Shown here one piece after another: positions 3,834-28,283 of a stretch of 39,381 nucleotides of DNA. Source of the stretch: an uncultured Erysipelotrichaceae bacterium. Lineage in GTDB: Bacteria; Bacillota_I; Bacilli_A; Erysipelotrichales; Erysipelotrichaceae. Below the pieces are notes generated by a model. That model saw only the letters and a program-made list of their open reading frames with translations, was not told where the DNA came from and did no database searches. The translations under genes and the position numbers were made by a program. The DNA is taken from the NCBI GenBank assembly GCA_902773425.1, contig CACYEP010000064.1:1-39381 (forward strand), given 5' to 3'. Each line of letters opens with the position of its first letter. Positions within the stretch are counted from its first letter, which is position 1.

Positions 3834-4193
3834 TTAATCAATGACGCGCACACCCTGTACGAACACATTGACCGCTTCAAATTTCTGATCCAGGGATTTT
3901 TCCAGCGTATATTTCACGCGCTGCTGCAGTTCATGCACAACCGCGCTGATTTTTACGCCGTAGCTGACGATGATATAGAGATCAATCACCAATCCGTTCT
4001 TTCCCTTCTTGACCGCGACGCCCTTGGAATAGTTATCCTGTCCGAGCACCACTGCCAATCCTCCGCTGATCATATTGCGCGGAGCAATCCCGACGACACC
4101 GTAGCACTCCGCTACCGCCGCGCCGGCTAAAGATGCGATCGCGTCCTTGGACACGTTGATTGTTCCGAGATAAGAGTCTTTTTCAATCGACAT
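3834..4193 (-). CDS. yloU: Asp23/Gls24-family protein YloU
   Basis: A small (119 residues) acidic-to-neutral cytosolic protein of the Asp23/Gls24 family, linked in other Gram-positives to envelope stress and membrane-proximal scaffolding. Typical features are the N-terminal GTINVSKDAIASLAG-like segment, the GVVGIAPRN region and the C-terminal VNVFVQGVRV strand. The start has a perfect AGGAGG at 4202-4207 and a strong promoter just upstream. It is the first gene of the yloU-fakA unit. Its exact role in this organism is unknown. Confidence 0.9.
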   Translation of the reverse strand: MSIEKDSYLGTINVSKDAIASLAGAAVAECYGVVGIAPRNMISGGLAVVLGQDNYSKGVAVKKGKNGLVIDLYIIVSYGVKISAVVHELQQRVKYTLEKSLDQKFEAVNVFVQGVRVID

Positions 4194-9021: not shown

Positions 9022-9590
9022 TTCTTACTCCTCATCATGATCTGCAGACCTAACCGCAGATATTCATCACTGGTCTTCGCCCCGGATTCCTTCAGCTGTT
9101 TGATCACGCCCTGGATTTCCTGCGGACGGTAGCCTAAGGTCTTCATCGCCTCAATTGCGTCTTCCAGTTCCGGATTCCCGGTGGATTCCGTTTCCGCAAC
9201 CACCAGTTTTCCCTTCAGATCCAATACAATCTGGCTCGCAGTCGACTTCCCGATTCCCGGAAGTTTCTTTAAATAGGACGCGTCCCCGTTTTCGATGGCT
9301 TCGATAATACGCGTGTAATGGTCCGCCGCCAGCATCTTCATCGCTGTCTTGGGTCCCAGTCCCTTTACCGAAATTAAACGCGTAAAGAGCTCCAGTTCAT
9401 CTTTTTTGAGGAATCCGAACAGATTCTGTCCGTCCTCCAAAAACTGTTGGTACGTAAACAAAAACACATCCCCGCCCGGTATTAACGGTGTACGGGTATT
9501 GAAGAATACCTTGTAGCCGATTCCGTTCACATCCACGATCACGGATTCGGCATCGTAGGAATAGACCTTTCCTCTTACAAACGCAATCAT
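9018..9590 (-). CDS. ruvA: Holliday-junction DNA-binding protein RuvA
   Basis: RuvA binds four-way junctions as a tetramer and recruits RuvB. The 190-residue protein has the N-terminal OB fold ([11 protein letters not shown]), two helix-hairpin-helix motifs (the second around [15 protein letters not shown]) and a C-terminal RuvB-contact domain ([12 protein letters not shown]). Length is typical. It is translationally coupled to ruvB and 24 bp downstream of mntP, with a possible promoter in that gap. Confidence 0.97.
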
Positions 9591-12971: not shown

Positions 12972-13000
12972 ATTCTACAGATTCCTCACCGTTTAATCAA
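12972..13000 (-). promoter_or_regulatory. SigA-type promoter for the HU gene
   Basis: TTGATT (12995-13000) and TAGAAT (12972-12977) are 17 bp apart. The -35 overlaps the last codons and stop of the upstream esterase gene, an example of how compactly promoters are placed here. Confidence 0.7.
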
Positions 13001-13754
13001 GCAGTTTCGGCATAAAGTAAACGATCTGTTTTTTCCACCACGGCCAGTCATGATCGACGTCATATCCCCACCAGTCAAACCATGCGTTATCTACGCCCTT
13101 CCAGCGTAATATTCCTTCCAGCGAGCGGTAGCTTTGCTGCATTGCTTCTTCCCATCTGCCCTGTCCGACGCAGAAGATCATCTTCGAATGCCGGTACATA
13201 TCCATCCACGGATGATCGGCCGGCATATTGCGCAGAAAGTCTTCCGGCGAATTCGCATATACGTTTTCATCCATGTAACCGTGGAAGAAGAAATTCGCGT
13301 TGAAGACGCCCGATAACGACAGCACGCCCTCGAAAAGATCGGGCCGGCGGAAGAACATATTCCCCGCATGCGCCGCGCCCATGCTGCATCCGGTCGTGAT
13401 CGGCTTGCGGTAAACTCCGTCGTTGTTGTAGCCCATGTTCAGTTCGATAACCCGCGGATACCATTCCTCGGTCACATAGCGGAAGAATGCTTCGCAGATC
13501 TCCCCGCGTTCATGTCCGTCCCGGTACTCATCCGACCAGGATTCCGCATCCACGCTGTCGGCGCAGAACAATTGGATCTGACCTGAATCAATCCACGGAG
13601 CCAGAGTATCCACCATTCCGAAATCCTCGAAATCGTAGAAATTCCCGTTTTGCGGCGCAAATACCATGATTGGCTTGCCCGCATGTCCGTAGATTTTGTA
13701 TTCCATGTCACGGTTTAACCAATGACTGTATTCTTTGCGGTATTCCGTCTGCAT
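12993..13754 (-). CDS. Alpha/beta-hydrolase, esterase-D-like, substrate unknown
   Basis: A 253-residue cytosolic alpha/beta hydrolase. The nucleophile elbow is GCSMG with Ser124. An Asp-rich aromatic segment near the C-terminus (DVDHDWPWW) carries the likely catalytic His, and HGYMDENVY lies between. There is no signal peptide or membrane span. It follows the ATP-grasp gene by 3 bp and must be co-translated with it. In other Bacillota I recall esterases of this type beside carboxylate-amine ligases, but the shared product is not known to me. Hydrolysis of an ester or thioester on the ligase's substrate or product is inference. Confidence 0.8.
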   Translation of the reverse strand: MQTEYRKEYSHWLNRDMEYKIYGHAGKPIMVFAPQNGNFYDFEDFGMVDTLAPWIDSGQIQLFCADSVDAESWSDEYRDGHERGEICEAFFRYVTEEWYPRVIELNMGYNNDGVYRKPITTGCSMGAAHAGNMFFRRPDLFEGVLSLSGVFNANFFFHGYMDENVYANSPEDFLRNMPADHPWMDMYRHSKMIFCVGQGRWEEAMQQSYRSLEGILRWKGVDNAWFDWWGYDVDHDWPWWKKQIVYFMPKLLD

Positions 13755-13757
13755 GCC

Positions 13758-14945
13758 TTACTCCATCGCGAAGGCGGTGAAGCGTTTGCCTTCCTCCAGA
13801 TCTTCAAACCGGCACATGAAGAATTCATTTCCCATCGCGCTGGAAAGAATATCCGGCATCCGGTCATGCCATACGATTTGATCCTTATACTTGGCAAGAA
13901 TCTCTTCGGAAGAATGCTTGTACGGAGCTCCGTCTCTTCTTCCGACATAGAATGTGCTGTATTTCTTTTCGGTGTTCGGAGTCAGCTTCAGATTTTCCGT
14001 CACCACTCTCGCGTAAATATCGTACACGTCGATATCATCCGAGAAATTCATCATATCCGGCGTATATCCTCCCGGAGGACGCTGGTTGACTTCCAAGCCG
14101 CATAAATCACCGACCTTGCCTAAGCCTTCTTTGTCCTTGGTTAAGCGGAAATACTCGTTGTGGAAGAATCTTCCCCTGACGCCGAAAGCTTTCACGACTC
14201 TTGAACCGACTTCAAATAAATCTTCCGGCACTTTGCGCAGGTTGTAGTAGGATACGGAATCATGTTCGTTGACAACATCCATGATCTGCTGGGGGAATTC
14301 ATGGTTCGTGCAGAAGATGATGTCTCCGTCCTGGTTGGTGATTCCGTCAAACGAAATCAGATCTCCGGTCACAAACTCTTCCAGCATATACGGAACTTTC
14401 TTTTCCTTCGCATAGTATTCCAGAAGTTCTTTCTCATCGTGTACCTTATGGGTATCGGACGCTCCGACTCCCTTGACCGGCTTATAGATCAGCGGATAGC
14501 CGACCTTCTTCGCGAACCGGATTCCCTTCTTCGGATCATCATCCATCAAAAGGTAGCGCGCACTGATTACATCGGCTTTCTTGTAGTACTTCTTCATCAA
14601 AGACTTATCCTGATAGTACTCAATGATGTCCTTCTTCGGCCCGGTCACGATATTGAAATCCGTGCGCAGTCTCGCGTCCGAATCCAGCCAATATTCGTTG
14701 TTGGATTCCAGCCAGTCAATATGACCGTACCTGAAAGTGAAATAGCCCATGGCACGGGTCATTTCGTCATAGTTTTCCATGGAATTCACTTTATAGTATT
14801 CCGTTAACGCATTCTTTAAACGGTTATCCAGCGAATCATACGCGTCTTCCCCGATGCCTAAGACATTCGCGCCGTGTTTTTTCAAACGGTCGCAGAATTG
14901 CCAGTAAGTCGAGGGAAACGTCGGAGAAATAAACACAAAATTCAT
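13758..14945 (-). CDS. ATP-grasp carboxylate-amine ligase, substrate unknown
   Basis: A 395-residue ATP-grasp enzyme that should activate a carboxylate as acyl-phosphate and join it to an amine or thiol. The N-terminal pre-ATP-grasp fold begins NFVFISPTFPSTYWQF. The ATP-binding core includes YPLIYKPVKGVGASDTH, EEFVTGDLISFDG and the Mg-binding GLEVNQRPPGGYTPDM. The C-terminal 60 residues (from about 335) form an added domain. It looks most like the CarB-like ATP-grasp group rather than D-Ala-D-Ala ligase or purine enzymes. It leads a two-gene unit with the esterase. Confidence 0.82.
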   Translation of the reverse strand: MNFVFISPTFPSTYWQFCDRLKKHGANVLGIGEDAYDSLDNRLKNALTEYYKVNSMENYDEMTRAMGYFTFRYGHIDWLESNNEYWLDSDARLRTDFNIVTGPKKDIIEYYQDKSLMKKYYKKADVISARYLLMDDDPKKGIRFAKKVGYPLIYKPVKGVGASDTHKVHDEKELLEYYAKEKKVPYMLEEFVTGDLISFDGITNQDGDIIFCTNHEFPQQIMDVVNEHDSVSYYNLRKVPEDLFEVGSRVVKAFGVRGRFFHNEYFRLTKDKEGLGKVGDLCGLEVNQRPPGGYTPDMMNFSDDIDVYDIYARVVTENLKLTPNTEKKYSTFYVGRRDGAPYKHSSEEILAKYKDQIVWHDRMPDILSSAMGNEFFMCRFEDLEEGKRFTAFAME

Positions 14946-15106: not shown

Positions 15107-17170
15107 TTAGATCTTCATGGCCGTTTCGTACGCGCCCCAGATGACCGAACGCAGATTTCCGACCTTCTTGCAGTCGCCTACGAAGTATACGTCCTTCTTA
15201 TCCTGGGCCGCTAACGGAGCCGGCAGGTATCCGATCGCACCGATGACCGAATCCACTTCGATTTCGACCGGCTGTCCTTCCTTGTTTGTGCATACGATCT
15301 TTCCGTCGTGTACTTCACGCAGGGTTGTCTCCAGATATACCGGAACCTTCTTCCACGCGAAGTATTCACGCAGGTACGAACTGTTCGCCAGGCAGACACC
15401 CTTCTGCGGAACCAAATCGTTCTTCATTTCCACGATTACCGGATCTTTTCCCTGTAAGTACAGTTCGTACGCGATTTCGCATCCCGTAAGACCGCCGCCT
15501 ATGACAGCTACCTTCTGTCCGACTTCCTTCTTTCCGTTCAGGAAGTCGCACGCCTCGATCATCTTTTCGTATCCCTTGACCTTGCGCAATACGATCGGCG
15601 TCGAACCGGTCGCCACGATGACCGGCAGGTTTCCGAATTCCTTGATGGAATGAACTTCGTAGTTCAGATGGACTTCGATGTTCATGTCCTTCATCTGTTT
15701 GATATACCAAGCCAGCAAGTCACGCAGTTTTCCCTTGTAGGATTCCGCGGATGCCGGGATGAACGTTCCGCCTAAGCGGTCCGACTTTTCATAGATGACC
15801 GGTTTATGACCGCGCAGTTTCAGAACTCTGGCCGCTTCCATGCCACCGATACCGCCGCCGATGATGATGACGGTCTTGGGCTCTTTGGCCGGCTTGATAT
15901 AGTGCTTGTCGGTCTGCATGGTTTCCGCGTTGACGGCGCATCTTGCGAGGTGCAGCGAATCCATGAGGTCCTGATCATTCGGGACACCCTTGTAATGGCA
16001 CATGTTGAAGCAGCCGTTATGGCATAAGATGCACGGACGGATATCTTCTTCCTTGCCCTTCATAAGCTTGGTGATCCATTCGGTATCGGCTAAGAACTGT
16101 CTTGCGAATCCGGCGCCGTCGAGTTTTCCTTCCGCGATGGATTCCGCCGCAACTGCCGGATCCAAGCGTCCTGCCGCAACCACCGGGATATCCACGAACT
16201 TCTTGATATGTTCGACATCTTCGAGGTTGCAGTTTTCCGGCATATAGATCGGCGGATGCGCCCAATACCACGCGTCATACGTTCCGTTATCGCAGTTTAA
16301 CATATCGTATCCCGCATCCTGTAAGTACTTCGCAGCTTTTTCGCTTTCTTCCATATCACGTCCGGCTTCGACATATTCTTCGCCCGGAAGCGCGCCTTCG
16401 CGGAATCCCTTCGTCTTGGATAAGACCGAATAACGCAAAGATACCGGGAAATCATCTCCGCAGGCTTCCTTGATGGCCTTCACGATTTCAACCGGGAAGC
16501 GGTAACGGTTTTCGAAGGATCCGCCGTATTCATCGGTGCGGTGGTTGACATATTTCAAGGTAAACTGGTCTAACAGGTATCCTTCATGGACGGCATGGAT
16601 TTCAACACCGTCCACGCCTGCCTCTTTCAGAAGTTTGGCGGTTTTCGCGAACGCATCAACGAATTCCGCAATTTCCTTCTTGGTCATTTCACGGGAAGGA
16701 ACTTTGTCACTCCAGCGGTTCGGAGACGGAGACGCCGACGCGGTGATCTTGTCCAGGTTCATAAACGGCTTGGATACTACACGTAAAACAGGATTGGTAT
16801 AAAGATCTTCCATCATCTTCGAAATGGTGAACGAACGTCCGAATCCCGCGGTCAGCTGTACGAACAGTTTCGCGCCGGTCGCATGGAATTTCGGCATCCA
16901 TCTGGCAAGATCCTTGTACATCTTCTTGTTCTGATAAAGCCATTCACCCATCATCGGATTGTAGACCGGCTGGCATCCCGGCAGCACTAATCCCGCATTA
17001 TTCTTGGCGACATTGTAGATAAATTCTGCACCGGCCTTATCAAAATGACACGGTTCCATCCATCCGAACAGATCCGTTCCGCCCATGGAAGTCAAAACGA
17101 TGCGGTTCTTGATCTCGCAGTTTTTGATTTTCCAAGGCGTAAACAACGCTTCATATTTTTGGTCCATCAT
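15107..17170 (-). CDS. Old-yellow-enzyme/2-enoate-reductase-type FMN, [4Fe-4S], FAD oxidoreductase
   Basis: A 687-residue NAD(P)H-dependent flavoenzyme of the 2-enoate reductase/BaiCD/2,4-dienoyl-CoA reductase group. The N-terminal TIM barrel (about 1-370) binds FMN and has VEIHAVHEGYLLDQF and RTDEYGGSFENRYRF. Then comes the [4Fe-4S] motif CILCHNGCFNMCH with a later Cys in LARCAVN. The C-terminal half has two dinucleotide folds (IIIGGGIGGMEAARVL and AVIGGGLTGCEIAYEL) for FAD and NAD(P)H. Such enzymes reduce activated C=C bonds, often of enoates or enones. It is last in the operon and its ATG overlaps the cooT stop by 4 bp. Its substrate may be the product of the dehydratase-like proteins; that is inference. 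Confidence 0.88.
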   Translation of the reverse strand: MMDQKYEALFTPWKIKNCEIKNRIVLTSMGGTDLFGWMEPCHFDKAGAEFIYNVAKNNAGLVLPGCQPVYNPMMGEWLYQNKKMYKDLARWMPKFHATGAKLFVQLTAGFGRSFTISKMMEDLYTNPVLRVVSKPFMNLDKITASASPSPNRWSDKVPSREMTKKEIAEFVDAFAKTAKLLKEAGVDGVEIHAVHEGYLLDQFTLKYVNHRTDEYGGSFENRYRFPVEIVKAIKEACGDDFPVSLRYSVLSKTKGFREGALPGEEYVEAGRDMEESEKAAKYLQDAGYDMLNCDNGTYDAWYWAHPPIYMPENCNLEDVEHIKKFVDIPVVAAGRLDPAVAAESIAEGKLDGAGFARQFLADTEWITKLMKGKEEDIRPCILCHNGCFNMCHYKGVPNDQDLMDSLHLARCAVNAETMQTDKHYIKPAKEPKTVIIIGGGIGGMEAARVLKLRGHKPVIYEKSDRLGGTFIPASAESYKGKLRDLLAWYIKQMKDMNIEVHLNYEVHSIKEFGNLPVIVATGSTPIVLRKVKGYEKMIEACDFLNGKKEVGQKVAVIGGGLTGCEIAYELYLQGKDPVIVEMKNDLVPQKGVCLANSSYLREYFAWKKVPVYLETTLREVHDGKIVCTNKEGQPVEIEVDSVIGAIGYLPAPLAAQDKKDVYFVGDCKKVGNLRSVIWGAYETAMKI

Positions 17171-17611: not shown

Positions 17612-19549
17612 CTATTCCGTCCATAAGCTGCACAGAAGTTCCGTGTAGGCATTCATATCTTCAATCCCGAGGCCCGCCGTAAGTCTGGCCTGGTTATATA
17701 AGATCCGTACGAGTTTTCCCGCTTTATCCGGTTCTTTGCGCCGGATCTCATCGATTTTCTTTACTGCCGGATGGCGCAGATTCAATTCCAGAACCTTCTT
17801 TGCTTTCGCATGAAGCTCCGGATTCATCTTCCGCAATCCCTCTTCCATTTCGAACGTAATCCCGTTTCCGCTGGTCAATACGACCGCAGAGGAATCAAGG
17901 CGCTTCGACGCAATTACTTCGTCCGCATCCTCCTTCAGGATTCCCCGCACAAATGCCAGGAACTCTTCTGCGTTTTCATCTTTACCGGCATCGGTTTTCA
18001 GGAAATCTTCCGGTGTTCCGTCCGTTAAAGAAATAAACGGATGATCCCTGTAGGAACCTAAGATCTCCGGCACCAGTCCTTCCGCCTGACCTTCAAAGCA
18101 CAGGAATTCCGCCCCTACGGTGCGCGCACGTTCGGTTTCCGGAAGTTTCATGATCTCATCCCGGGACTTCCCTTTGGCATAATAGATCGCGTTCTGTCCG
18201 GGTTTCATGCGGGAAATATACTCTTCCAGACCGGTCTTTGTTTTCGCATCCCGGCTGGATTCAAACAGCAGCAACCCCCGGAGCGCTTCATGGCGCGGAT
18301 TGTCTTCGTCCAAGGCCTCCACCAAAACAGTTCTTCCGAAATCATTCCAGAATACTTCGTAGCGTTCCCGGTCATTTTTCATCAAATCTTCCAGGGAACG
18401 CTGGATCTTCCGCACTAAGACATCCCGCATCGATCTGAGCACGCCTTCCGGCTGCACGGACTCTCTGGAGATGTTCAGCGGAAGGTCCGGACAATCCGCG
18501 ACGCCTTTGACAAACGCGAATTCATCCGTCAGAAGTTCTTCACACGCATCCATGATCTTGACTCCGCTTGAATACAGTTCAAGTCCCGGATAATCGTCAT
18601 TGGTATCAAAGGTATTCCAGGATACCGACGGTATGTACAGGATATAATCCATGCGCACTTTCCCGTCCGCATGCCCGGTGATTACCTTCAGAGGCTTGCG
18701 GAACTGTTCCTTCTTTCCGGCATGTACATCCAGTTTCTTTCCGAAATGCTCATTGAAATATGCTTCATAGTCTTCCGGCTTTACTTCGTTCGCATTCCGT
18801 TTCCACAGCGGCACCATGGAGTTTAACTGTTCCCAACCCCATTTCTCGGACGGATTTCCCTTTTCATCCGGCACCAGAGTCGGCATATTCAGCAAGATCG
18901 GCCAGCGCACATAATCGGAATATTCCTTTACCAGCTTGTACAGGGTATAAGGTCTTAAATACCGGTCGTAGGTATCCTTCTCCGCGTCTTTTTCTTCGCG
19001 GATATGAAGGATGACATCGGTTCCCGGTTCCTTCCTGGACCCTTTGAAGATCTTATAACCGGTCGTTCCGTCGCTTTGGAAGACATAGGCTTCTTCCTTT
19101 CCGGGTTTTCTGGAAACCACCGAAACCCGGTCCGCAACCATAAACAGCGAGTAAAACCCGATGCCGAACTGTCCGATCAGTTCTTCCGCATCTTTTTGCG
19201 AAGACGCTTCCCTGAATTCCGAGGAACCGCTGAGCGCAATCGTGCCGAGATACTTTTTCAATTCTTCCTCATCCATGCCGATTCCGTTGTCCGATACGGA
19301 TAACAGACGTTTCTCTTTATTGATTGCCATGCGGATCGAGTACGATTCCCTGGTCAAAGGCCCGATGTTTCCTCCGGGGTTTTCCAGAGCGCCGATGTAT
19401 CTTTTGTCAATCGCATCCGAAGCGTTCGAAATCAGTTCGCGCAGAAAAACTTCCTTCTTCGTATACACGGAGTGGATCATCATCTGCAGCAACTTTTCGG
19501 TTTCGGTTTCAAACGGAACCGGCTGTTTGAGGTGTTTGGATTCAGACAT
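17612..19549 (-). CDS. htpG: Hsp90-family chaperone HtpG
   Basis: HtpG is the bacterial Hsp90, an ATP-driven dimeric chaperone. The 645-residue protein has the GHKL ATPase domain with ELISNASDAIDK, SVSDNGIGM and IGQFGIGFYSLFMVAD, a middle domain with SWNTFDTNDDYPGLELYSSGVKI-type sequence and LPLNISRES, and a C-terminal dimerisation domain. It is in the middle of the dehydratase/nickel operon with a 2-bp gap to the small membrane protein gene upstream and 9 bp to the His-rich gene downstream, so it must be co-expressed. That setting suggests a role in maturing one of the operon's large metalloproteins. Confidence 0.96.
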   Translation of the reverse strand: MSESKHLKQPVPFETETEKLLQMMIHSVYTKKEVFLRELISNASDAIDKRYIGALENPGGNIGPLTRESYSIRMAINKEKRLLSVSDNGIGMDEEELKKYLGTIALSGSSEFREASSQKDAEELIGQFGIGFYSLFMVADRVSVVSRKPGKEEAYVFQSDGTTGYKIFKGSRKEPGTDVILHIREEKDAEKDTYDRYLRPYTLYKLVKEYSDYVRWPILLNMPTLVPDEKGNPSEKWGWEQLNSMVPLWKRNANEVKPEDYEAYFNEHFGKKLDVHAGKKEQFRKPLKVITGHADGKVRMDYILYIPSVSWNTFDTNDDYPGLELYSSGVKIMDACEELLTDEFAFVKGVADCPDLPLNISRESVQPEGVLRSMRDVLVRKIQRSLEDLMKNDRERYEVFWNDFGRTVLVEALDEDNPRHEALRGLLLFESSRDAKTKTGLEEYISRMKPGQNAIYYAKGKSRDEIMKLPETERARTVGAEFLCFEGQAEGLVPEILGSYRDHPFISLTDGTPEDFLKTDAGKDENAEEFLAFVRGILKEDADEVIASKRLDSSAVVLTSGNGITFEMEEGLRKMNPELHAKAKKVLELNLRHPAVKKIDEIRRKEPDKAGKLVRILYNQARLTAGLGIEDMNAYTELLCSLWTE

Positions 19550-19768: not shown

Positions 19769-21394
19769 TTACCATCCTTCCGAATCATCGAATTCCAGCA
19801 GCGTCGGATCTAACGGCTTTTCATGCATGATCGTTGTCATGTAGTCGTTGATGATTCCGCGGATTTCACTGCGGCTTACCGTACGCTTATCCGGTAACGC
19901 ATGCGGCATCCAGATTGCGTGAATATCACGCGCACGGAATTCATCTTCAAACAATCCGTGAACTCCCTGCATGCCCTTGCACTGCAGCTGGTCGTACATC
20001 ATGACCATATCGCAATGGAACTTTTCCATGTATTCCCAAAGTTCGAAGATATGATTCATGCCGCCCACTGCCATGCGGCGCATCGGTGCCCACTCATGAT
20101 AAAGCGCCATATCCTTCAGCATATTCTCGTAAGTATCCGTACGGATCGTCATGTTGAACATTAACGAGTCCATATTGATAATGCAGTTTAATCCCCAGCA
20201 ATTGTATGCCCATGTGCACCAATGCGAGTAATACAGCGGTGCGCAGCTCCACGCAATCACGCGGTGACGGGTCATCGGGAAGCTGTTGATCTTCTTTTCA
20301 ACGCACTTCTCGAGGATCTTTTTGACCTTCTTATCGGTTTCATGCCAGATCTTCCGGTTACCGTCCTGGGATTGGTAAATGCGGTACAATGCCTGGGCTA
20401 CGCCGTTGATCGGATAGTAATCCGTATTCGCGGCAACTTCCCATTTTTCCCATTCGAATCTTTGAAGTTCGTTCTGTTCTTCCAGATTCTTCTTAAGTTC
20501 TTCCATGTTCATCGGCATGCCGGACTGTTCTTCAATGAACTTCCAGCATTCCTCAATTTCCTTGGCGCAGTGTTCCTGGACCAGCGGATCATCGAACTGC
20601 ATCGGCTGCGGCATCGCGAATAACGGACGGTCCATCATCCAGTCCTGAATGACCGAAGTGCCTACCGAGCCGTCGCACGCTTCATTCGAAGTTACGACAA
20701 ACGGATAGTACTCCGGTACGTCATCCTGTAAGAAGATTCCGCATTCCGCCTGGCACATCGGGCACGGGTCACCCGGAAGTCCGATGGACTGGGCAGCGTC
20801 AATGTAATTCAATACGGTGTGATTGTTGACATGGCAGGTTACAAAGTACGGGATCATCTGTAACGGCACATCGTCCATGCGGTCACGCCACGGGTAGAAG
20901 ATACCTCCCCAGACGGTTTCATCATGCGCCGGTGTACGGTCATAGAGTTCCTTGGATCCTCCGAGTCTTTGGTCGGCCGCCAGCATTCTCATGAACTGGC
21001 GGATCGTTTCGGAAGTCATCGCACGGTAATGCCAGGCACTTGCCCGTAACGCTTGTCCGCGCATGCCTTCCAATCCGCGGTCATACCAATGCATAACCGG
21101 CAAATACGTCTGTCCGAGCCAGCGGTATCTCCAGACACCTTTCAGGAATAACGGAAGAGCCTTCAAGCCGCCGCCGTACTTTACGATATCTCCGACCATA
21201 TTTCCGTAGTTATACAGCCAGATCATGTTGAAATAGTACATGGTATCCTTGAATCCGCGCCATTCACGGTGTTTGTACAACCCCGTCTTGTCAAGATACA
21301 GGTCTCCCAGCCGTCTCTCTTCGTGCGGTTTGCCGTTCCAGAATACAGATACAGCCTTCTTGGCCTTTTTCAGCAGATTTGTCTTTTTACTCAT
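19769..21394 (-). CDS. 2-hydroxyacyl-CoA-dehydratase-like large subunit, pair 2
   Basis: A 541-residue member of the HgdA/HgdB (BcrB/BcrC) superfamily, proteins that hold a [4Fe-4S] cluster and receive high-energy electrons from an ATP-driven activase. Likely cluster cysteines are in GDPCPMCQAECG (C211, C214, C218), NEACDGSVG (C240) and QLQCKGM near residue 480. The first 180 residues are an aromatic-rich extension not seen in classical 477-residue HgdA. The C-terminal tail LEFDDSEGW resembles that of the pair-1 protein (LLDFDDESAM). It lies 12 bp downstream of the smaller subunit of pair 2. Substrate unknown. Confidence 0.82.
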   Translation of the reverse strand: MSKKTNLLKKAKKAVSVFWNGKPHEERRLGDLYLDKTGLYKHREWRGFKDTMYYFNMIWLYNYGNMVGDIVKYGGGLKALPLFLKGVWRYRWLGQTYLPVMHWYDRGLEGMRGQALRASAWHYRAMTSETIRQFMRMLAADQRLGGSKELYDRTPAHDETVWGGIFYPWRDRMDDVPLQMIPYFVTCHVNNHTVLNYIDAAQSIGLPGDPCPMCQAECGIFLQDDVPEYYPFVVTSNEACDGSVGTSVIQDWMMDRPLFAMPQPMQFDDPLVQEHCAKEIEECWKFIEEQSGMPMNMEELKKNLEEQNELQRFEWEKWEVAANTDYYPINGVAQALYRIYQSQDGNRKIWHETDKKVKKILEKCVEKKINSFPMTRHRVIAWSCAPLYYSHWCTWAYNCWGLNCIINMDSLMFNMTIRTDTYENMLKDMALYHEWAPMRRMAVGGMNHIFELWEYMEKFHCDMVMMYDQLQCKGMQGVHGLFEDEFRARDIHAIWMPHALPDKRTVSRSEIRGIINDYMTTIMHEKPLDPTLLEFDDSEGW

Positions 21395-21406: not shown

Positions 21407-22609
21407 CTAGTCCGCTTTCTTCGCGGTTTGTCCGTGCAGTTTCTTTAATTCCACGCTTTCGACAAAGGCCTGGAATCTGGTGCGGAGCTGTCCGGACGCC
21501 GAATTGATATACTCTTTTTCAATCGAACAGGTCGGAATGTCATAGTCCCGCGGAATGATCAACGCGTCAATCGTGCGCTCATAACTCCAATATTCACAGA
21601 ACTTATTGGATTCCACGATCAGGCCGTCCGCATTGTATTCCCGGCATACATCCGCCAGATATTTCTTTCTTCCGCGCATCAAATCCTGCGGCATAAACCG
21701 CGGACAGCAGCTGGTATTCAGATAATGACGGGCAATTGCGTCTAACGGCGGCTGGCCTTCGTTCACAACGATTTCTTCCCTTCCCGGCAGCGAGCCGTAG
21801 CAATACCGGTCCGCGACCACCAATGCGCCGCAGGATTCAATCAGTTTGATGAAATCCGGGTCATCGTTTTCCGCACCGGCCACCGCAACCTTGATCTTCC
21901 AGCCCGGTTTGATATCCGGCTGACGGGTTTTCAGTTCTTCCGCGGTTTCCCGCAGCATCGGCAAAATCTTATCCTTCGGGCAGGTCAGGCTCGTCAACAT
22001 AATCACCGAGAACTCATATCCCGTAATCGTCGGAACAGCCAGTTTCCGGTAGTTTCCGATTTCCGTGATCAGCCGGCATACTTCGTTGTGCTGTTCAATG
22101 GCTTTCAATAATGCTTCATCGCTTGTATCAATGCCGAACTTCTCATGAAGTTTATCCAGCACGTGGGCCTGAAGCTGTTTCTTGTAATGTTCCACGGAAT
22201 TCTCGGTCTTCTTGAACGGAATATCCGTGAATTCCACAAAGAAGTCCGGGTTCTGAATGATATTCATACGCTGAAGGTGTTCCTGGAAACGGCAGGTCAC
22301 CGTACAGGTTTCCGTCGCCATCTGGGCATCCAGGAAGTTGAATCCGCCTTCCAGCGCGCGTTCCATCAAGCTTCTTCCGTAGTGGCACGTTCTTCCCGAC
22401 ATGTAATAAGTCGCCATTGTCGGAGTCGTGCAGTTCGGCGCACGTAAGCGCACCGAGAAACATCCCGGTAAATCCAATAAGACTTCCGGCATGTAGTAAC
22501 AGGTATAACCGATTGCTTTGCGGCCTTCTTCCCTGGCTTCGCGCACCAGTTCATTGTTGGCCTGCTGCAGCATATCTTCCATCCGGATCAGATGTTTTAA
22601 GTCTCTCAT
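21407..22609 (-). CDS. 2-hydroxyacyl-CoA-dehydratase-like small subunit (HgdB type), pair 2
   Basis: A 400-residue HgdB-type protein. Three cysteines in superfamily-typical positions probably bind a [4Fe-4S] cluster: GRTCHYGRS (C75), TETCTVTC (C102) and NKFCEYW near residue 338. Other family marks are GYTCYYMPEVLL near the N-terminus, DRYCYGS and the C-terminal SGQLRTRFQAFVE. It is similar along its length to the pair-1 protein at 26158-27378. Its ATG overlaps the stop of the cysteine-motif gene by 4 bp. Confidence 0.88.
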   Translation of the reverse strand: MRDLKHLIRMEDMLQQANNELVREAREEGRKAIGYTCYYMPEVLLDLPGCFSVRLRAPNCTTPTMATYYMSGRTCHYGRSLMERALEGGFNFLDAQMATETCTVTCRFQEHLQRMNIIQNPDFFVEFTDIPFKKTENSVEHYKKQLQAHVLDKLHEKFGIDTSDEALLKAIEQHNEVCRLITEIGNYRKLAVPTITGYEFSVIMLTSLTCPKDKILPMLRETAEELKTRQPDIKPGWKIKVAVAGAENDDPDFIKLIESCGALVVADRYCYGSLPGREEIVVNEGQPPLDAIARHYLNTSCCPRFMPQDLMRGRKKYLADVCREYNADGLIVESNKFCEYWSYERTIDALIIPRDYDIPTCSIEKEYINSASGQLRTRFQAFVESVELKKLHGQTAKKAD

Positions 22610-23352
22610 GCTTTGGTTCTCTCTTTCCCAAAATGCAATTCTCTCATGCCTTCCACTTCATCGCATACCGGCTTTAAGCTGCACATGCTGCAATCCGTAG
22701 GCATTCCCTCCAGGATTCTCGACAGGGTCATCGTGATTTCATGAACCTTTTTCGCGTCTTCCTGTAAGGCCTTGTAGTCTTCCGAAGGATCGGTGATGAA
22801 AATGACCTTCGCCGCCTTCACACCGTCCACCTTCAGATAACGGTCAAGGAAACAGTTCCCGACTTTTTCAAACGAAATGCCTTCCGCGAGTGCCTTCTTG
22901 GATACCCGCACCTGTTCCTTGAAATTCTCCGAGGAAGTGCGGACCATATATCCTTTCGCAAACACATGATATTTGATGAAATCCAGCTTCTGCAGCGTAC
23001 GGAATGCCCGCTCGCTTGCTTTCTTGTTCTCCAAGTCTCCCAGCATCTCAGGATCCACGGATAAGATCACCAAGCGCGCATAGGGCACATCCATGCCGGT
23101 TTCCTTTAAGTCTTTCCCGATCACAACGGTCTTGCTGCCGGTGAATGCTTCCGGATCGGTCGTTACGCAGGTATAATTCGCTGCGCCGAGATTCGATCCG
23201 CCCAGTTCATACGCGGTATCCCTTCCCATGACCAGTTCGAATTTCTCGGTTTCCGGCCATTTTTTCGATGGGTCATACGCGTATTCTTTGCGTTCCGGGT
23301 GCTTTTCCAGCAGTTTCTCCAGATGTTCGAGCACCGTCTGATAAAGTTCCAT
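22606..23352 (-). CDS. Cysteine-motif protein, possibly related to CO dehydrogenase/acetyl-CoA synthase beta family
   Basis: A 248-residue soluble protein. The N-terminal part has FELVMGRDTAYELGGSNLG, the middle FIKYHVFAKGYMVRTS, and the C-terminus a cysteine motif C221-x2-C224-x5-C230 (TDCSMCSLKPVCDEVEG) followed by MRELHFGK. I associate this layout with proteins annotated as CO dehydrogenase/acetyl-CoA synthase beta-subunit family, but this is recall and not an alignment; it is far shorter than a true ACS and lacks most of it. The cysteines suggest an Fe-S or nickel site. It is translationally coupled to the next dehydratase-like gene (ATGA overlap). Confidence 0.6.
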   Translation of the reverse strand: MELYQTVLEHLEKLLEKHPERKEYAYDPSKKWPETEKFELVMGRDTAYELGGSNLGAANYTCVTTDPEAFTGSKTVVIGKDLKETGMDVPYARLVILSVDPEMLGDLENKKASERAFRTLQKLDFIKYHVFAKGYMVRTSSENFKEQVRVSKKALAEGISFEKVGNCFLDRYLKVDGVKAAKVIFITDPSEDYKALQEDAKKVHEITMTLSRILEGMPTDCSMCSLKPVCDEVEGMRELHFGKERTKA

Positions 23353-23360
23353 ACGGTTCC

Positions 23361-23531
23361 TCAGAATTTAATATCGGTCTTCTTCCGGTCGAAAATCTTG
23401 TTGACCTGAACATACGCCCATCCGAGCACCTTCTGATCCAGATTCCAGAAGTACACGATAAACAAGACGCCTGTCAGGATGCCGAAGATCTTCAGAACCA
23501 GCTTCAGAGCTTTTCCAAGATTCTCCATCAT
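23361..23531 (-). CDS. Small single-span membrane protein (paralogue 1)
   Basis: A 56-residue gene, easy to miss because of its size. It starts MMENLGKALKLVLK, has one membrane span (about residues 12-29), then FWNLDQKVLGW and a basic C-terminus (DRKKTDIKF). An AGGAG lies six bases before the first ATG, and the gaps to the activase (9 bp) and to the cysteine-motif gene (8 bp) are operon-like. It is paralogous to the 71-residue protein at 19552-19767. Its position between the activase and pair 2 suggests a membrane tether or electron-transfer scaffold. Confidence 0.75.
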   Translation of the reverse strand: MMENLGKALKLVLKIFGILTGVLFIVYFWNLDQKVLGWAYVQVNKIFDRKKTDIKF

Positions 23532-23540
23532 GGGTCACTC

Positions 23541-24335
23541 CTAAGCCTGTGCAAGACCTTTTTGACGCGCAAATTCAGCCGCTCCGAGCGCACCCATCAG
23601 CTGCGGGTCCGTCGGAAGATCGATAACCTTCAGTTTCAGAACATGTTCGATTGCCTGTTTCAGGCCGTCATTCTTCGCGCATCCGCCGGTCAAAGTGATG
23701 GAATCGGTCGCCCCGGCTTTCTTCGCCATGACGAAGCATCTCTTCGCAACAGCCATCTGGATGCCCGCCGCGATTTCGTTCATCGGCTTTCCTTCGCCGA
23801 CCAGCGTGATGACTTCACTTTCCGCGAATACCGTACACTGCGCCGTGATCGGAATGACATTCTTGGCGCTTAAAGATAATTTCGAGAATTCCGGAAGACT
23901 CATTTCGAAAGAACGTGCCATCGCTTCATAGAACCGTCCGGTTCCTGCCGCGCACTTATCATTCATCGCGAAGTTCTTCACGGTGCCGTCTTTGTCGACG
24001 CTGATACCCTTGACGTCCTGTCCGCCGATATCAATGATCGCCTTGACGTTCGGATCGGTCACATGCACGCCCATCGCGTGGCACGAAATCTCGGAGATGT
24101 TTTCGTCCGCGAACGGAACCTTATTACGGCCGTAGCCGGTACCGATCAGATACGCCAGTTCTTCCGAAGAATTCAGTCCGACTTTATCCAGAACTTCCTT
24201 CATCGCAATCTTTGCGCTTTCTTCCGAATTGATTTTCGATTTGATCGTTGTATCCGCGCAGATTTTTCCGTTTTCATCCAAAATAACAGCTTTTGTATAC
24301 GTACTTCCTACATCGCATCCGCCAAAATATTTCAT
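23541..24335 (-). CDS. hgdC: Acyl-CoA dehydratase activase (HgdC/BcrA-BadF family)
   Basis: A 264-residue ASKHA-fold ATPase that hydrolyses ATP to push a low-potential electron from its [4Fe-4S] cluster into the partner dehydratase or reductase. Visible marks are the N-terminal GCDVGSTYTKAVILD phosphate loop, DIGGQDVK, NDKCAAGTGRF (C128), CTVFAESEV (C167) and TGGCAKNDG. C128 and C167 are the two cysteines each monomer gives to the bridging cluster in the homodimer. It has an AAGGAGAGG site and lies between the two dehydratase-like pairs as their only activase. Confidence 0.95.
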   Translation of the reverse strand: MKYFGGCDVGSTYTKAVILDENGKICADTTIKSKINSEESAKIAMKEVLDKVGLNSSEELAYLIGTGYGRNKVPFADENISEISCHAMGVHVTDPNVKAIIDIGGQDVKGISVDKDGTVKNFAMNDKCAAGTGRFYEAMARSFEMSLPEFSKLSLSAKNVIPITAQCTVFAESEVITLVGEGKPMNEIAAGIQMAVAKRCFVMAKKAGATDSITLTGGCAKNDGLKQAIEHVLKLKVIDLPTDPQLMGALGAAEFARQKGLAQA

Positions 24336-24371: not shown

Positions 24372-26156
24372 CTACATCGCGCTCTCGTCATCGAAGTCGA
24401 GCAGCGAGTCATCGCACGGCGTAGCTTTCATGACCGTACGCATGTATTCATTGACTTTCGCACGCATACTCTTGCGGGATACCGTGCGCGGGTCCATCAG
24501 ATCGTGTTCGATCCAGATCATGTGATAGCCCTTTTCTCTTGCCTGTTCGTCCAGGATGCCCTGCAGGGTAGACATGTTCTTGCAGGATACATGCTGGTAC
24601 ATGATGATGATATCGACATTCCAGGCTTCGCATTGTCTCCAGAGTTCATCCACGACGTTCTGATAGCCGCCGTTGGTATGACGTCTCATGACCATGCGTT
24701 CGTACAGTCTGGAAAGATCCATCAAAGCCGTTTCCTTATCTTCGGTTTCTAACGGCTTGGTGAAGTTCAGGCTTTCCATTTCAACCAGGACATCGACGCC
24801 CCAGCAGTTTGCCAGCCAGTTGGTGAAGTTCGCGTAGTAGTGTGCAGGGCACGACCAGACGATGGCTCTGTATTTCATCTTGCCCGGCCAAGCTTCTTCT
24901 TTGCGTTCATACGCGTCCAGCATCAGTTTTTGAACCTTCTTGCAGGACTTGATGACTCTCGGATCGCTTCCGCCGTCCATTTCGTAATTCCATTTACGGA
25001 ACAGTTCGTAGCTCGGACCGATGATCTGCGGGTAATCCGTCTTGTTGACTTCCCACTTTTCAAGTTCATACGCGGTTTCTTCGTTGAAACGCTTCATGCA
25101 TGTGAAGTAGTTGTTCCAGTCCCACTTTTCTCCGGTGATCCGTTCCACGAACTTGATGCACTCTTTCACGTCCTCCGTCGCGTCTTCCACGGTTTCTTCA
25201 TATTCGTAACGCACCGGGAAGGTCAGATGGAAGGTCGGAAGATCCGGGAATCTTCTGGAAACATACGAAGAAGCCATGACCGAACCGTCACAAGGCATCG
25301 AGCTGGAAATGAAGCAGCTTCCCATATGCGGAAGCGCATCGACAACCAACGCGCCGCATTCGCTCGAAGGAACCGGACAGGTATCCGCCGGCAAACCGAA
25401 GCTTTCCACCGCATCCAGATACGGAATGCAGGTCAGCTGGTCGATTTCCGATACAAGGAATACCGGCATCAGCTGATACGGAATACCCAGAAGTTTCGGG
25501 AATCCGGCCATGATCTGTCCCATGGTCATTTCATCGAACAGAACCGTCTTCTTGTTTAATTCATCGCTGTTTCCGTTCTTGCGGTCGCATTTCGCAAGGA
25601 ATACCAAGTTCTCCGCAACGTAACGGAAGATGCAATAAATCATCTCGTGGGACATTTTTAACGCTCTTCCGCGCTGTCCCATCGTATTCTTATCCATGAA
25701 CCCTACACAGCACATGTAGGAGATCATCCAGCGGTAGTAGAAGGTGGCGTTAAGCGCCGGCACCAGGTCTTTCGAGAACGTTGCCAGCAGCATTCCCCAC
25801 ATGCGTAACCATTCGTAGAAATCCACTCCGGTGTCCCGCAAGCCTCTCCATTCACGGCGTACGGTGGCCATATCGCCTGCGCGGTACAGTTTTCCGAGTT
25901 TTTTTTCTCCCTTCAGAATCAGATCCGCACGTTCTTTCATGCTCATCTTGGCAAACGACTCAAATTCCTTCTGTACACGCTTCGCGTCACTCTTGAGGTT
26001 TTTGCCCTGCCTTCCGAAGAAATCTTTCCAGTCGGTCTCCTTCAGCATTCCGCCGATGATTCCGCCGATTTCTTTCATATTAGCCGCCTGGGCTTTCCAG
26101 TCCATGCGGTTTTTCGCTTTAAAGAACGAAGGATTCGGATATTTTCTTACACTCAT
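24372..26156 (-). CDS. 2-hydroxyacyl-CoA-dehydratase-like large subunit, pair 1
   Basis: A 594-residue HgdA/HgdB-superfamily protein, longer than classical subunits because of an N-terminal extension of about 200 residues rich in Lys, Trp and Tyr. Candidate cluster ligands are DTCPVPSSECG (C260, C267), SMPCDGSV (C289) and HVSCKNMS near residue 540, matching the positions in the pair-2 protein. Conserved segments include AIVWSCPAHYYANFTNWLAN and the DPRTVSRKSMRAKVNEYMRT region. It starts 1 bp after the pair-1 small subunit. Catalysis may be dehydration, as in amino-acid fermenters, or reduction, as in benzoyl-CoA reductases; sequence alone does not decide. Confidence 0.84.
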   Translation of the reverse strand: MSVRKYPNPSFFKAKNRMDWKAQAANMKEIGGIIGGMLKETDWKDFFGRQGKNLKSDAKRVQKEFESFAKMSMKERADLILKGEKKLGKLYRAGDMATVRREWRGLRDTGVDFYEWLRMWGMLLATFSKDLVPALNATFYYRWMISYMCCVGFMDKNTMGQRGRALKMSHEMIYCIFRYVAENLVFLAKCDRKNGNSDELNKKTVLFDEMTMGQIMAGFPKLLGIPYQLMPVFLVSEIDQLTCIPYLDAVESFGLPADTCPVPSSECGALVVDALPHMGSCFISSSMPCDGSVMASSYVSRRFPDLPTFHLTFPVRYEYEETVEDATEDVKECIKFVERITGEKWDWNNYFTCMKRFNEETAYELEKWEVNKTDYPQIIGPSYELFRKWNYEMDGGSDPRVIKSCKKVQKLMLDAYERKEEAWPGKMKYRAIVWSCPAHYYANFTNWLANCWGVDVLVEMESLNFTKPLETEDKETALMDLSRLYERMVMRRHTNGGYQNVVDELWRQCEAWNVDIIIMYQHVSCKNMSTLQGILDEQAREKGYHMIWIEHDLMDPRTVSRKSMRAKVNEYMRTVMKATPCDDSLLDFDDESAM

Positions 26157-26157
26157 G

Positions 26158-27378
26158 TTACGCTTCCTCCTTCTTGGCTTTTTCCGCGTTGTTCTTATGA
26201 ATCTTCTTGATTTCCAAAGATTCCACGAATGCCTGGAACCGGGTTCTTAACTGTCCCGAGGAACGGGCATTGTACGGGCGGTCGATGGATAAGACCGGCC
26301 AGCCCATCTCTTCGCTCATGATATGTGTGACCAGAGCTCTTTCAAATCCCCAGAAATCACAGAACTTCATCTGTTCGTAGATAATGCCGTCCGCCTTGAA
26401 TTCCTTCGCCAGACGGTCGGCGGTTGTACGGCGCTGCTGCACCTTCTCATCCGAGATGTAGCGCGCGCATTCGCTGTGTTCCATATAGAAGCGGCAAATC
26501 TGATCCAATGCCGGCTCTTCATCGTTTAATTCGATGACTTCCCTTCCCGGCGTCGATCCGTAGCAATACCGGTCAGATACTACCAAGGCACCGCATTCCT
26601 CGATCAATTTCGTCAGGGACGGATCATCGATTTCGCTTCCGACGATGGATACGCGTGCACGGAACCACGGCTTCGGATCCGGCTTGCGCGTCTTTAATTC
26701 TTCCAGTGTCTCTTCCAGATACGGAAGGATCAGATACTTCGGACATGTGTAGCTCACCAGATTCAGAATGTGATACTCATATCCGGTGATGACCGGGTTA
26801 TCCGCCTTGCGCATTTCCCCGATCTCCGTCAAAATCCGGCAAACCTTATTGTGTTCTTCCACGGCTTTCCGGATTGCGGCATCGCTTGTATCCACACCGA
26901 GATTCTTCTCCATGACATCCAGCAGCCGGATACGCATCTGTTTGACATAGGAGCGCACGGAATAATCTTCGACCTTATACGGCATATCCGTATGGGTGAC
27001 GAAGAAGTTTTCCTTGCTGTTCATCTTCAGGATCTCAAAGTGTTCATAGAAGCGGTTCATCATAGAACAGGCATCTACGCCTGCCAATCCGTCTAAGAAT
27101 TGGTATCCTCCTTCAATTCCGCGTTCCACCAGCGAACGGGCAAACTCGCATGTGTAGTTGGACATGTAGTATGTCGCAATATCAATGGAGCCCGTTCTCG
27201 GCGCGCGCAAACGCACCGAAAAACATCTGTCAACGTTCAAAAGGACTTCCGGAATGTGATAACACGTATATCCGACAGCCAGTTTCCCGTCTTGTTTTGC
27301 CTTCTCCACCAACTCATTATCGGCATTGTCGAGCAGGTTTTCGAAGTAAATCAAGTGTTTAAGGTCTCGCAATCTCAC
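26158..27378 (-). CDS. 2-hydroxyacyl-CoA-dehydratase-like small subunit (HgdB type), pair 1
   Basis: A 406-residue HgdB-type protein. Probable [4Fe-4S] cysteines are NYTCEFARS (C77), VDACSMMN (C104) and QMKFCDFWGFE (C340), the last being a strong family mark. GYTCYHIPEVLL (C39), SDRYCYGS and SGQLRTRFQAFVESLEI are shared with the pair-2 protein at 21407-22609, so the two pairs arose by duplication of a gene pair. It lies 10 bp after cooC and 1 bp before its large subunit, in the order small-large for both pairs. Confidence 0.88.
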   Translation of the reverse strand: MRLRDLKHLIYFENLLDNADNELVEKAKQDGKLAVGYTCYHIPEVLLNVDRCFSVRLRAPRTGSIDIATYYMSNYTCEFARSLVERGIEGGYQFLDGLAGVDACSMMNRFYEHFEILKMNSKENFFVTHTDMPYKVEDYSVRSYVKQMRIRLLDVMEKNLGVDTSDAAIRKAVEEHNKVCRILTEIGEMRKADNPVITGYEYHILNLVSYTCPKYLILPYLEETLEELKTRKPDPKPWFRARVSIVGSEIDDPSLTKLIEECGALVVSDRYCYGSTPGREVIELNDEEPALDQICRFYMEHSECARYISDEKVQQRRTTADRLAKEFKADGIIYEQMKFCDFWGFERALVTHIMSEEMGWPVLSIDRPYNARSSGQLRTRFQAFVESLEIKKIHKNNAEKAKKEEA

Positions 27379-27388
27379 CGCCTCCTTT

Positions 27389-28168
27389 TTATAGCAATCC
27401 CAGTTTTTCCAATGCGGATTTAGCGCCCCGCATCACCGGCGAATCTTCACTTAATTCAAATACACTGTCTCCGCGGATATCATTGTACGCGTGATTTTCG
27501 TCGCTTCCGATTACGGTCAGAAGCTCGATTCCGTCTTCTTCAAGACGCTTCACGGTGCCCGCTTTTTCCAGCACATCCATATCGTATACGCGGTTGATGA
27601 TGGCTCCGCACTTTTCGTACATGACCAGCTCATCCGCCACTTTCTTGATGGTCTCGACGACTTGGATTCCTTTTCTGGAAGGATCCGAGATCAGCACCAG
27701 ATGCGTAACCTTTTCCATGACCCTACGGTTGATCTGTTCGATTCCCGCCTCGCCGTCGATTACGACATAATCAAAATCGGACGCCAGCAGATTGATGACT
27801 TCCTTCAGATACGCGTTGACCTTGCAATAGCACCCGGCAGCTTCCGGTCTTCCGATGGCCAGAAAGGAAAACGCGCGGTTTTCAACCATCGTGTCAAAAA
27901 TACGGAACCTAGCTTCATTCAGCATCTCGATTGCTGCCTTAGGTTCCCCGTTTTCCACGCGTGTAACGATTGTTTTGCGGATATCATCCAATGTCTCCTT
28001 GACCTCGACTCCGAGTGCAGTCGACAAACCGATTGCCGGGTCCGCGTCGATAGCCAGAATTCTTGCGTCCGGGTGTGCCTCAACTAAAAGCCGCACAAAA
28101 GCAGACGAAATAGATGTCTTCCCAACCCCGCCTTTGCCGGATACGGCAATAATACTTGTTTTTCCCAT
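27389..28168 (-). CDS. cooC: CooC-type nickel-insertion ATPase
   Basis: A 259-residue MinD/ParA-like P-loop ATPase. It has the deviant Walker A GKGGVGKTS (residues 11-19), DADPAIGLS and FDYVVIDGEAGIEQINRR. The diagnostic mark is the CxC motif in GRPEAAGCYCKVN (C113, C115), the metal-binding pair of CooC, which loads nickel into CO dehydrogenase and acetyl-CoA synthase. No target of that kind is in the window. It is the first gene of the operon and has its own promoter region after the secDF terminator. The ribosome binding site (AAGGA) is about 13 bp from the ATG, a little far. Confidence 0.9.
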   Translation of the reverse strand: MGKTSIIAVSGKGGVGKTSISSAFVRLLVEAHPDARILAIDADPAIGLSTALGVEVKETLDDIRKTIVTRVENGEPKAAIEMLNEARFRIFDTMVENRAFSFLAIGRPEAAGCYCKVNAYLKEVINLLASDFDYVVIDGEAGIEQINRRVMEKVTHLVLISDPSRKGIQVVETIKKVADELVMYEKCGAIINRVYDMDVLEKAGTVKRLEEDGIELLTVIGSDENHAYNDIRGDSVFELSEDSPVMRGAKSALEKLGLL

Positions 28169-28248: not shown

Positions 28249-28274
28249 AAAAAAACAGGCCCTTACGAGCCTGT
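28249..28274 (-). terminator. Rho-independent terminator after secDF
   Basis: An 8-bp stem (ACAGGCTC / GGGCCTGT, with one G-T pair) and a GTAA tetraloop are followed by six or more T on the minus strand, about 10 bp after the secDF stop. It separates secDF from the cooC operon. Confidence 0.9.
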
Positions 28275-28283
28275 CGGAATGAT

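Follow-up and report, generated by a model that had tools for sequence, protein, structure and literature searches.

A stand-alone homologue of the acetyl-CoA synthase middle domain in a conserved gene cluster with CooC-type and HgdC-type ATPases

Acetyl-CoA synthase (ACS) is regarded as among the oldest nickel enzymes and, to our knowledge, is known only within the CO dehydrogenase (CODH)/ACS pathway. Downstream of its middle (A2) domain the enzyme carries the cubane ligands of the A-cluster in the pattern C-x2-C-x8-C-x9-C, with the nickel-binding CxC further on. CooC-family ATPases function in nickel insertion, and HgdC-type activases drive the ATP-dependent reduction of their HGD-D partners. 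We know of no HgdBA and HgdC operon that also includes a CooC, an ACS-like subunit or a small membrane protein. A further point of comparison is IsrA of Acetobacterium wieringae, a proposed isoprene reductase for which a nickel site, served by HypA/HypB, has been suggested as a possibility (PMC10134865).

Gene X and the cluster around it

The stretch of DNA analysed here (the window; 39,381 nucleotides, contig CACYEP010000064.1 of assembly GCA_902773425.1) comes from an uncultured Erysipelotrichaceae bacterium, whose metagenome-assembled genome (MAG) comprises 1.76 Mb and is 88% complete. On its minus strand, a terminator-like element, two HgdB-HgdA pairs and other genes follow one another in the order given below, where the gene we call X is shown together with its two parts:

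28254–28275 (−), terminator-like stem-loop at the divide between the operon and the upstream secDF (consensus match only)
27389–28168 (−), CooC-type P-loop ATPase with C113-x-C115 (PDB 3kje CooC, 6.9e-17)
26158–27378 (−), HGD-D subunit B1 (HgdB1), double-cubane type (PF06050, 1.7e-90; PDB BzdN and DCCP)
24372–26156 (−), HGD-D subunit A1 (HgdA1), 594 aa (PF06050, 1.8e-35; conserved cysteines)
23541–24335 (−), HgdC-type acyl-CoA dehydratase activase, an ATPase (TIGR00241, 221 bits, above the cut-off)
23361–23531 (−), 56-aa protein with one hydrophobic segment and VYF(W/F)N(L/I)D(Q/M)K (strict pattern)
22606–23352 (−), X, 248 aa, a stand-alone ACS A2 homologue with a C-terminal C-x2-C-x5-C-x9-H tail
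22723–23250 (−), ACS A2-homologous region, approximately residues 35–210 of X (Pfam CdhC, PDB profile alignment, hhalign local block)
22630–22692 (−), predicted metal site C221-x2-C224-x5-C230-x9-H240 of X (conservation; C-x2-C in the global hhalign)
21407–22609 (−), HGD-D subunit B2 (hgdB2), overlapping X in an ATGA (PF06050, 5.4e-88)
19769–21394 (−), HGD-D subunit A2 (HgdA2), 541 aa (PF06050, 6.4e-27)
15107–17170 (−), BaiCD-like long old-yellow-enzyme oxidoreductase (NF041087, 356 bits, below the cut-off)

Past HgdA2, HtpG (Hsp90; 17612–19549, −) precedes the BaiCD-like oxidoreductase. HtpG also adjoins the operon at L002, L003, L005, L006 and L080; the window copy is 43–47% identical to those of L003, L005, L006 and L080, compared with ~70–96% for the adjoining Hgd proteins, and it appears as a fast-evolving linked chaperone. 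Downstream of the oxidoreductase, 12993–14945 (−) encodes an ATP-grasp protein and then a putative esterase.

The ATG of X is preceded by GAGGAA, a Shine-Dalgarno-like element, and the C-terminal end of the protein reads PTDCSMCSLKPVCDEVEGMRELHFGKERTKA; CSMCSLKPVCDEVEGMRELHFGKERTKA. The initial annotation had described a 248-residue protein ending in C-x2-C-x5-C followed by DEVEGMRELHF, and both features are seen in this open reading frame. Relatives of X with 24–85% identity were found in about 30 genomes, the best-matching record being a rumen Erysipelotrichaceae MAG (85% identity in X). Because these relatives are kept in so many genomes, and because the three cysteines of the tail are present in all 33 copies, we consider X to be a real gene.

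X was found in 24 of 299 sampled Lachnospiraceae genomes, a count that leaves out four genomes matching the X profile only via a full-length ACS. Among 146 sampled Erysipelotrichaceae genomes, close copies occur in three, the window included, divergent full-length copies in G120 and G059, and fragments in two more. Beyond these two families X is rare: a search across the Bacillota phylum returned the window and a match in G431, nothing else, and we rejected the latter as a relative since it is weak, partial and devoid of the cysteine motif. A plasmid search gave no match. The copy in G097 is interrupted by the end of its contig. Matches in G060 and G560 were not accepted as full X, being tail remnants that lack the A2 domain; at approximately 3924–4061 (−) of L018 (G060 C55) and 9403–9543 (+) of L106 (G560 C4), the CxxCx5C tail of X stands alone, apparently as a remnant. 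In G955, a divergent X lies beside two HgdC copies, a CooC and one HGD-D gene (L103, contig C8); its tail lacks the histidine, and the genome encodes a full-length ACS elsewhere (C20).

A cluster of CooC, HgdB-HgdA, HgdC, membrane protein and X is conserved across about 30 loci in the Erysipelotrichaceae and Lachnospiraceae. At every locus where the contig extends far enough, the cluster contains CooC, and HgdC is either adjacent to X or elsewhere in its cluster. As a rule an HgdB/HgdA pair is included too, in varying positions, and in some clusters it is joined by another, diverged pair; where the hgdBA pair is variable or lies apart (L006, L017, L080), X is still close to CooC and HgdC. In the window, the stop codon of X and the ATG of hgdB2 share four bases (ATGA, 22606–22609), and it had been claimed that this overlap demands co-production of the two proteins. 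The overlap is real but it is found only in close relatives (L002, L003, L005), and at other loci the second hgd pair lies apart from X, is missing or has diverged. Comparison of the loci thus indicates that the link between X and hgdB2 is local while HgdC and CooC are its constant partners, so that a demand for co-production is too strong.

The CooC-type ATPase has the P-loop GKGGVGKTS and a CxC that aligns with that of 3kje and is conserved in 27 of 27 sequences. Six cysteines of B1 (39, 77, 104, 272, 304 and 340) are invariant (25/25) and align with the double-cubane protein (DCCP), B1 itself scoring below the curated NCBIfam double_cubane cut-off. In HgdC, which has the BadF/HgdC ATPase domain, the cluster-bridging cysteines C128 and C167 are present in 31 of 31 sequences. 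The 56-aa open reading frame, absent from a simple listing of such frames, lies between hgdC and X and ends 8 bases ahead of X; by the strict pattern, homologues of 50–60 aa occupy the same position at 22 of 33 loci, and neither Pfam nor NCBIfam gave a match.

A BaiCD-like oxidoreductase is encoded near X at L002, L003, L005, L081, L087 and L095, and in most two-pair clusters, the window included, it takes the place of an IsrA type. An IsrA-type FAD/Fe-S oxidoreductase (~900 aa) directly follows X at L084, L085, L090, L093, L096 and L099, and HgdC at L086, with HypA as the next gene at 6 of 7 Lachnospiraceae loci. IsrA-like N-termini were found in 19 of 24 X-positive versus 43 of 275 X-negative Lachnospiraceae genomes (Fisher p = 1.6e-10, genomes counted without phylogenetic correction), an association that could be due to shared ancestry. 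In the host MAG we found two IsrA-like genes and the same number of HypA matches. HypA was considered as a direct demonstration that X uses nickel but was discounted, because it accompanies IsrA at X-free loci too. Our search of the literature on double-cubane proteins, CooC, ACS and the dehydratases, which lay mostly outside subscription journals, found no earlier description of the cluster or of this combination of known parts.

X is a remote homologue of the ACS middle domain

Several comparisons were used to place X. Residues 41–190 align with positions 14–153 of the 155 in Pfam CdhC (E = 2.5e-4), with 21.4 bits, formally below the curated cut-off of 24 bits. The NCBIfam ACS alpha/beta models align with X at model positions 309–461, which is the middle domain. 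A profile built from seven relatives matched residues 335–473 of Moorella ACS in the PDB (E ~0.003–0.01), and one built from nine retrieved full-length ACS (712–784 aa) from some 45 genomes, Clostridia among them, with E down to 4e-10 per genome. In hhalign, alignments of 33 X and 32 ACS sequences were matched with probabilities of 97.8% (local) and 98.7% (global). We also modelled X with AlphaFold2 from a seven-sequence alignment (mean pLDDT 74.5, pTM 0.77), and in a Foldseek search of this model against the PDB all 20 matches with E < 0.001 were ACS (best 2.3e-7, TM ~0.5). R149, present in 33 of 33 copies of X, aligns with R429 of Moorella ACS. Together, these results identify X as a remote homologue of the ACS/CdhC middle (A2, CoA-binding) domain, in support of the link to the CO dehydrogenase/acetyl-CoA synthase beta family that the initial annotation had drawn. 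The sole PDB match of the single X sequence in phmmer, a transaldolase, proved spurious, showing that a profile is needed, and weak Pfam matches to YIEGIA_cap, PDDEXK_1 and Helicase_C were dismissed as covering short stretches.

X was also suspected to be too short for the ACS enzyme, and this is borne out. It has no A1 domain, almost nothing of A3 and no distal-nickel CxC, and it terminates 8 residues past H240 with no further cysteine. Lacking both the nickel-binding CxC and the bulk of A3, X has no way to form a normal A-cluster; it is not an ACS and should not be classified as one.

An alignment of the X cysteines with those of CdhC or ACS, which the initial annotation had anticipated, is obtained in part. 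The first tail cysteine follows the invariant arginine by 70–72 residues in X versus 77 in the ACS set. The global hhalign pairs the C-x2-C of X with that of the A-cluster and leaves the third cysteine without an unambiguous placement, but the local alignment ends ~20 residues before the C-x2-C. The match to the ACS site is further limited by a fourth ligand that is His and not Cys and by the missing nickel-binding CxC. In the AlphaFold2 model the tail is disordered (pLDDT < 50). Besides the invariant cysteines, the histidine is kept in 32 of 33 copies, a pattern that makes the tail a likely metal site. Its motif probably derives from the A-cluster motif, and it would most likely hold a [4Fe-4S] cluster, bound by three Cys and one His.

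Possible roles of X

We tentatively favour, with a probability of about 0.45, the reading that X is a truncated ACS relative which contributes a metal cluster to an ATP-driven double-cubane reductase as an accessory subunit. In such a complex, HgdC would use ATP hydrolysis to supply the HgdB/HgdA pair with electrons of very low potential. X would dock on the HgdC/HgdBA machinery and either hand the electrons on, to a substrate or an oxidoreductase partner, or carry a metal site; by analogy with ACS, its A2 domain would probably bind CoA or a CoA thioester. The metal that CooC would insert, into X or into a site of HgdA/B, would most likely be nickel, and the 56-aa protein may provide a membrane anchor for the complex.

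The host leaves CooC without a classical client, since searches of the MAG (88% complete) found no full ACS, no CODH/prismane protein (PF03063) and no HypD. A search of the same MAG for a CbiM-type nickel/cobalt importer also found none, which is neither proof nor exclusion of nickel use. Nickel in the X system is plausible, as suggested by the CooC and, at IsrA loci, by HypA. We think it unlikely, at this level of detail, that the cluster is an undescribed Ni-Fe-S system of gut and rumen bacteria without CODH/ACS, in which HgdC/HgdBA powers a CooC-loaded, membrane-anchored subunit derived from a mini-ACS.

In the main rival reading, X is not involved in turnover but is a maturation factor or scaffold that, with CooC, builds or repairs a metal site (Ni or Fe-S) in HgdA/HgdB or in a partner oxidoreductase such as IsrA. 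The tight linkage of X to CooC and HgdC at the loci where hgdBA varies or lies apart would fit such a role, as would the IsrA and HypA genes that neighbour and co-occur with X and the resemblance of its Cys/His tail to a delivery tail. However, the A2 domain of X is complete, beyond the needs of a delivery protein, and double-cubane proteins are not known to need special factors when produced in E. coli. We regard this role as possible but less probable than that of a subunit.

Less likely still, X could be a subunit that binds CoA thioesters or has a regulatory function, with structural zinc in its tail and no redox role. CCCH patterns often bind zinc, and the model shows little order in the tail. 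CoA binding would also suit the ancestry of X, as A2 is the part of ACS that contacts CoA, as reported for C. autoethanogenum and cited in PMC12289521. Yet the setting is strictly a redox operon with CooC, and the motif occupies the position of the Fe-S cubane in ACS.

Given its ACS ancestry and the nickel ATPase in the operon, X might be taken for a functional mini-ACS, forming or cleaving a C-C or C-S bond of an acyl-CoA at a nickel site, but this is very improbable for a protein without the Ni-binding CxC and the A3 body, in a host where no CODH or other CO source was found. That X is a decaying, functionless ACS remnant, as the separate short C-terminal tail fragments at L013/G060 and G560 C4:522402 might suggest, is already refuted by its conservation, with intact, full-length copies, invariant motifs and the same gene order in ~30 genomes.

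If X is an accessory subunit as we propose, a stand-alone ACS domain would work with a nickel ATPase and a double-cubane reductase, and parts of ACS would have been reused for another reaction. An accessory nickel or Fe-S site may then be what ATP-driven Fe-S reductases act on, or the means by which they act. X becomes a candidate client for an orphan CooC, and genes of gut bacteria labelled 'hypothetical' become a testable complex.

Comparison with known systems

X shares with ACS (AcsB/CdhC) the A2 homology, the fold detected by Foldseek, the invariant Arg block (R429 in Moorella) and a C-x2-C at a similar distance downstream. In contrast, ACS has ~730 residues compared with 248 in X, and the A1 domain, A3 body and nickel CxC belong to ACS only. 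The third spacer is x8 in ACS and x5 in X, and the fourth ligand is Cys in ACS and His in X; X stays below the Pfam cut-off, and its host has no CODH or ACS that we could find in the MAG. The maturation of ACS and CODH by AcsF/CooC likewise depends on a CooC-family ATPase with a CxC pair, but those two clients are the ones missing from our searches of the host.

The isr operon of A. wieringae (PMC10134865) is similar in that IsrA and HypA adjoin several X clusters and co-occur with X, and two IsrA-like proteins are encoded in the X host. It differs in having no HgdBAC, CooC or X, and the oxidoreductase of the window is BaiCD-like. DCCP, 2-hydroxyacyl-CoA dehydratase and class I benzoyl-CoA reductase all resemble the X clusters in their six-Cys HgdB type, HgdA-type partner and HgdC ATPase, whereas in the X clusters one HgdC often serves two pairs.
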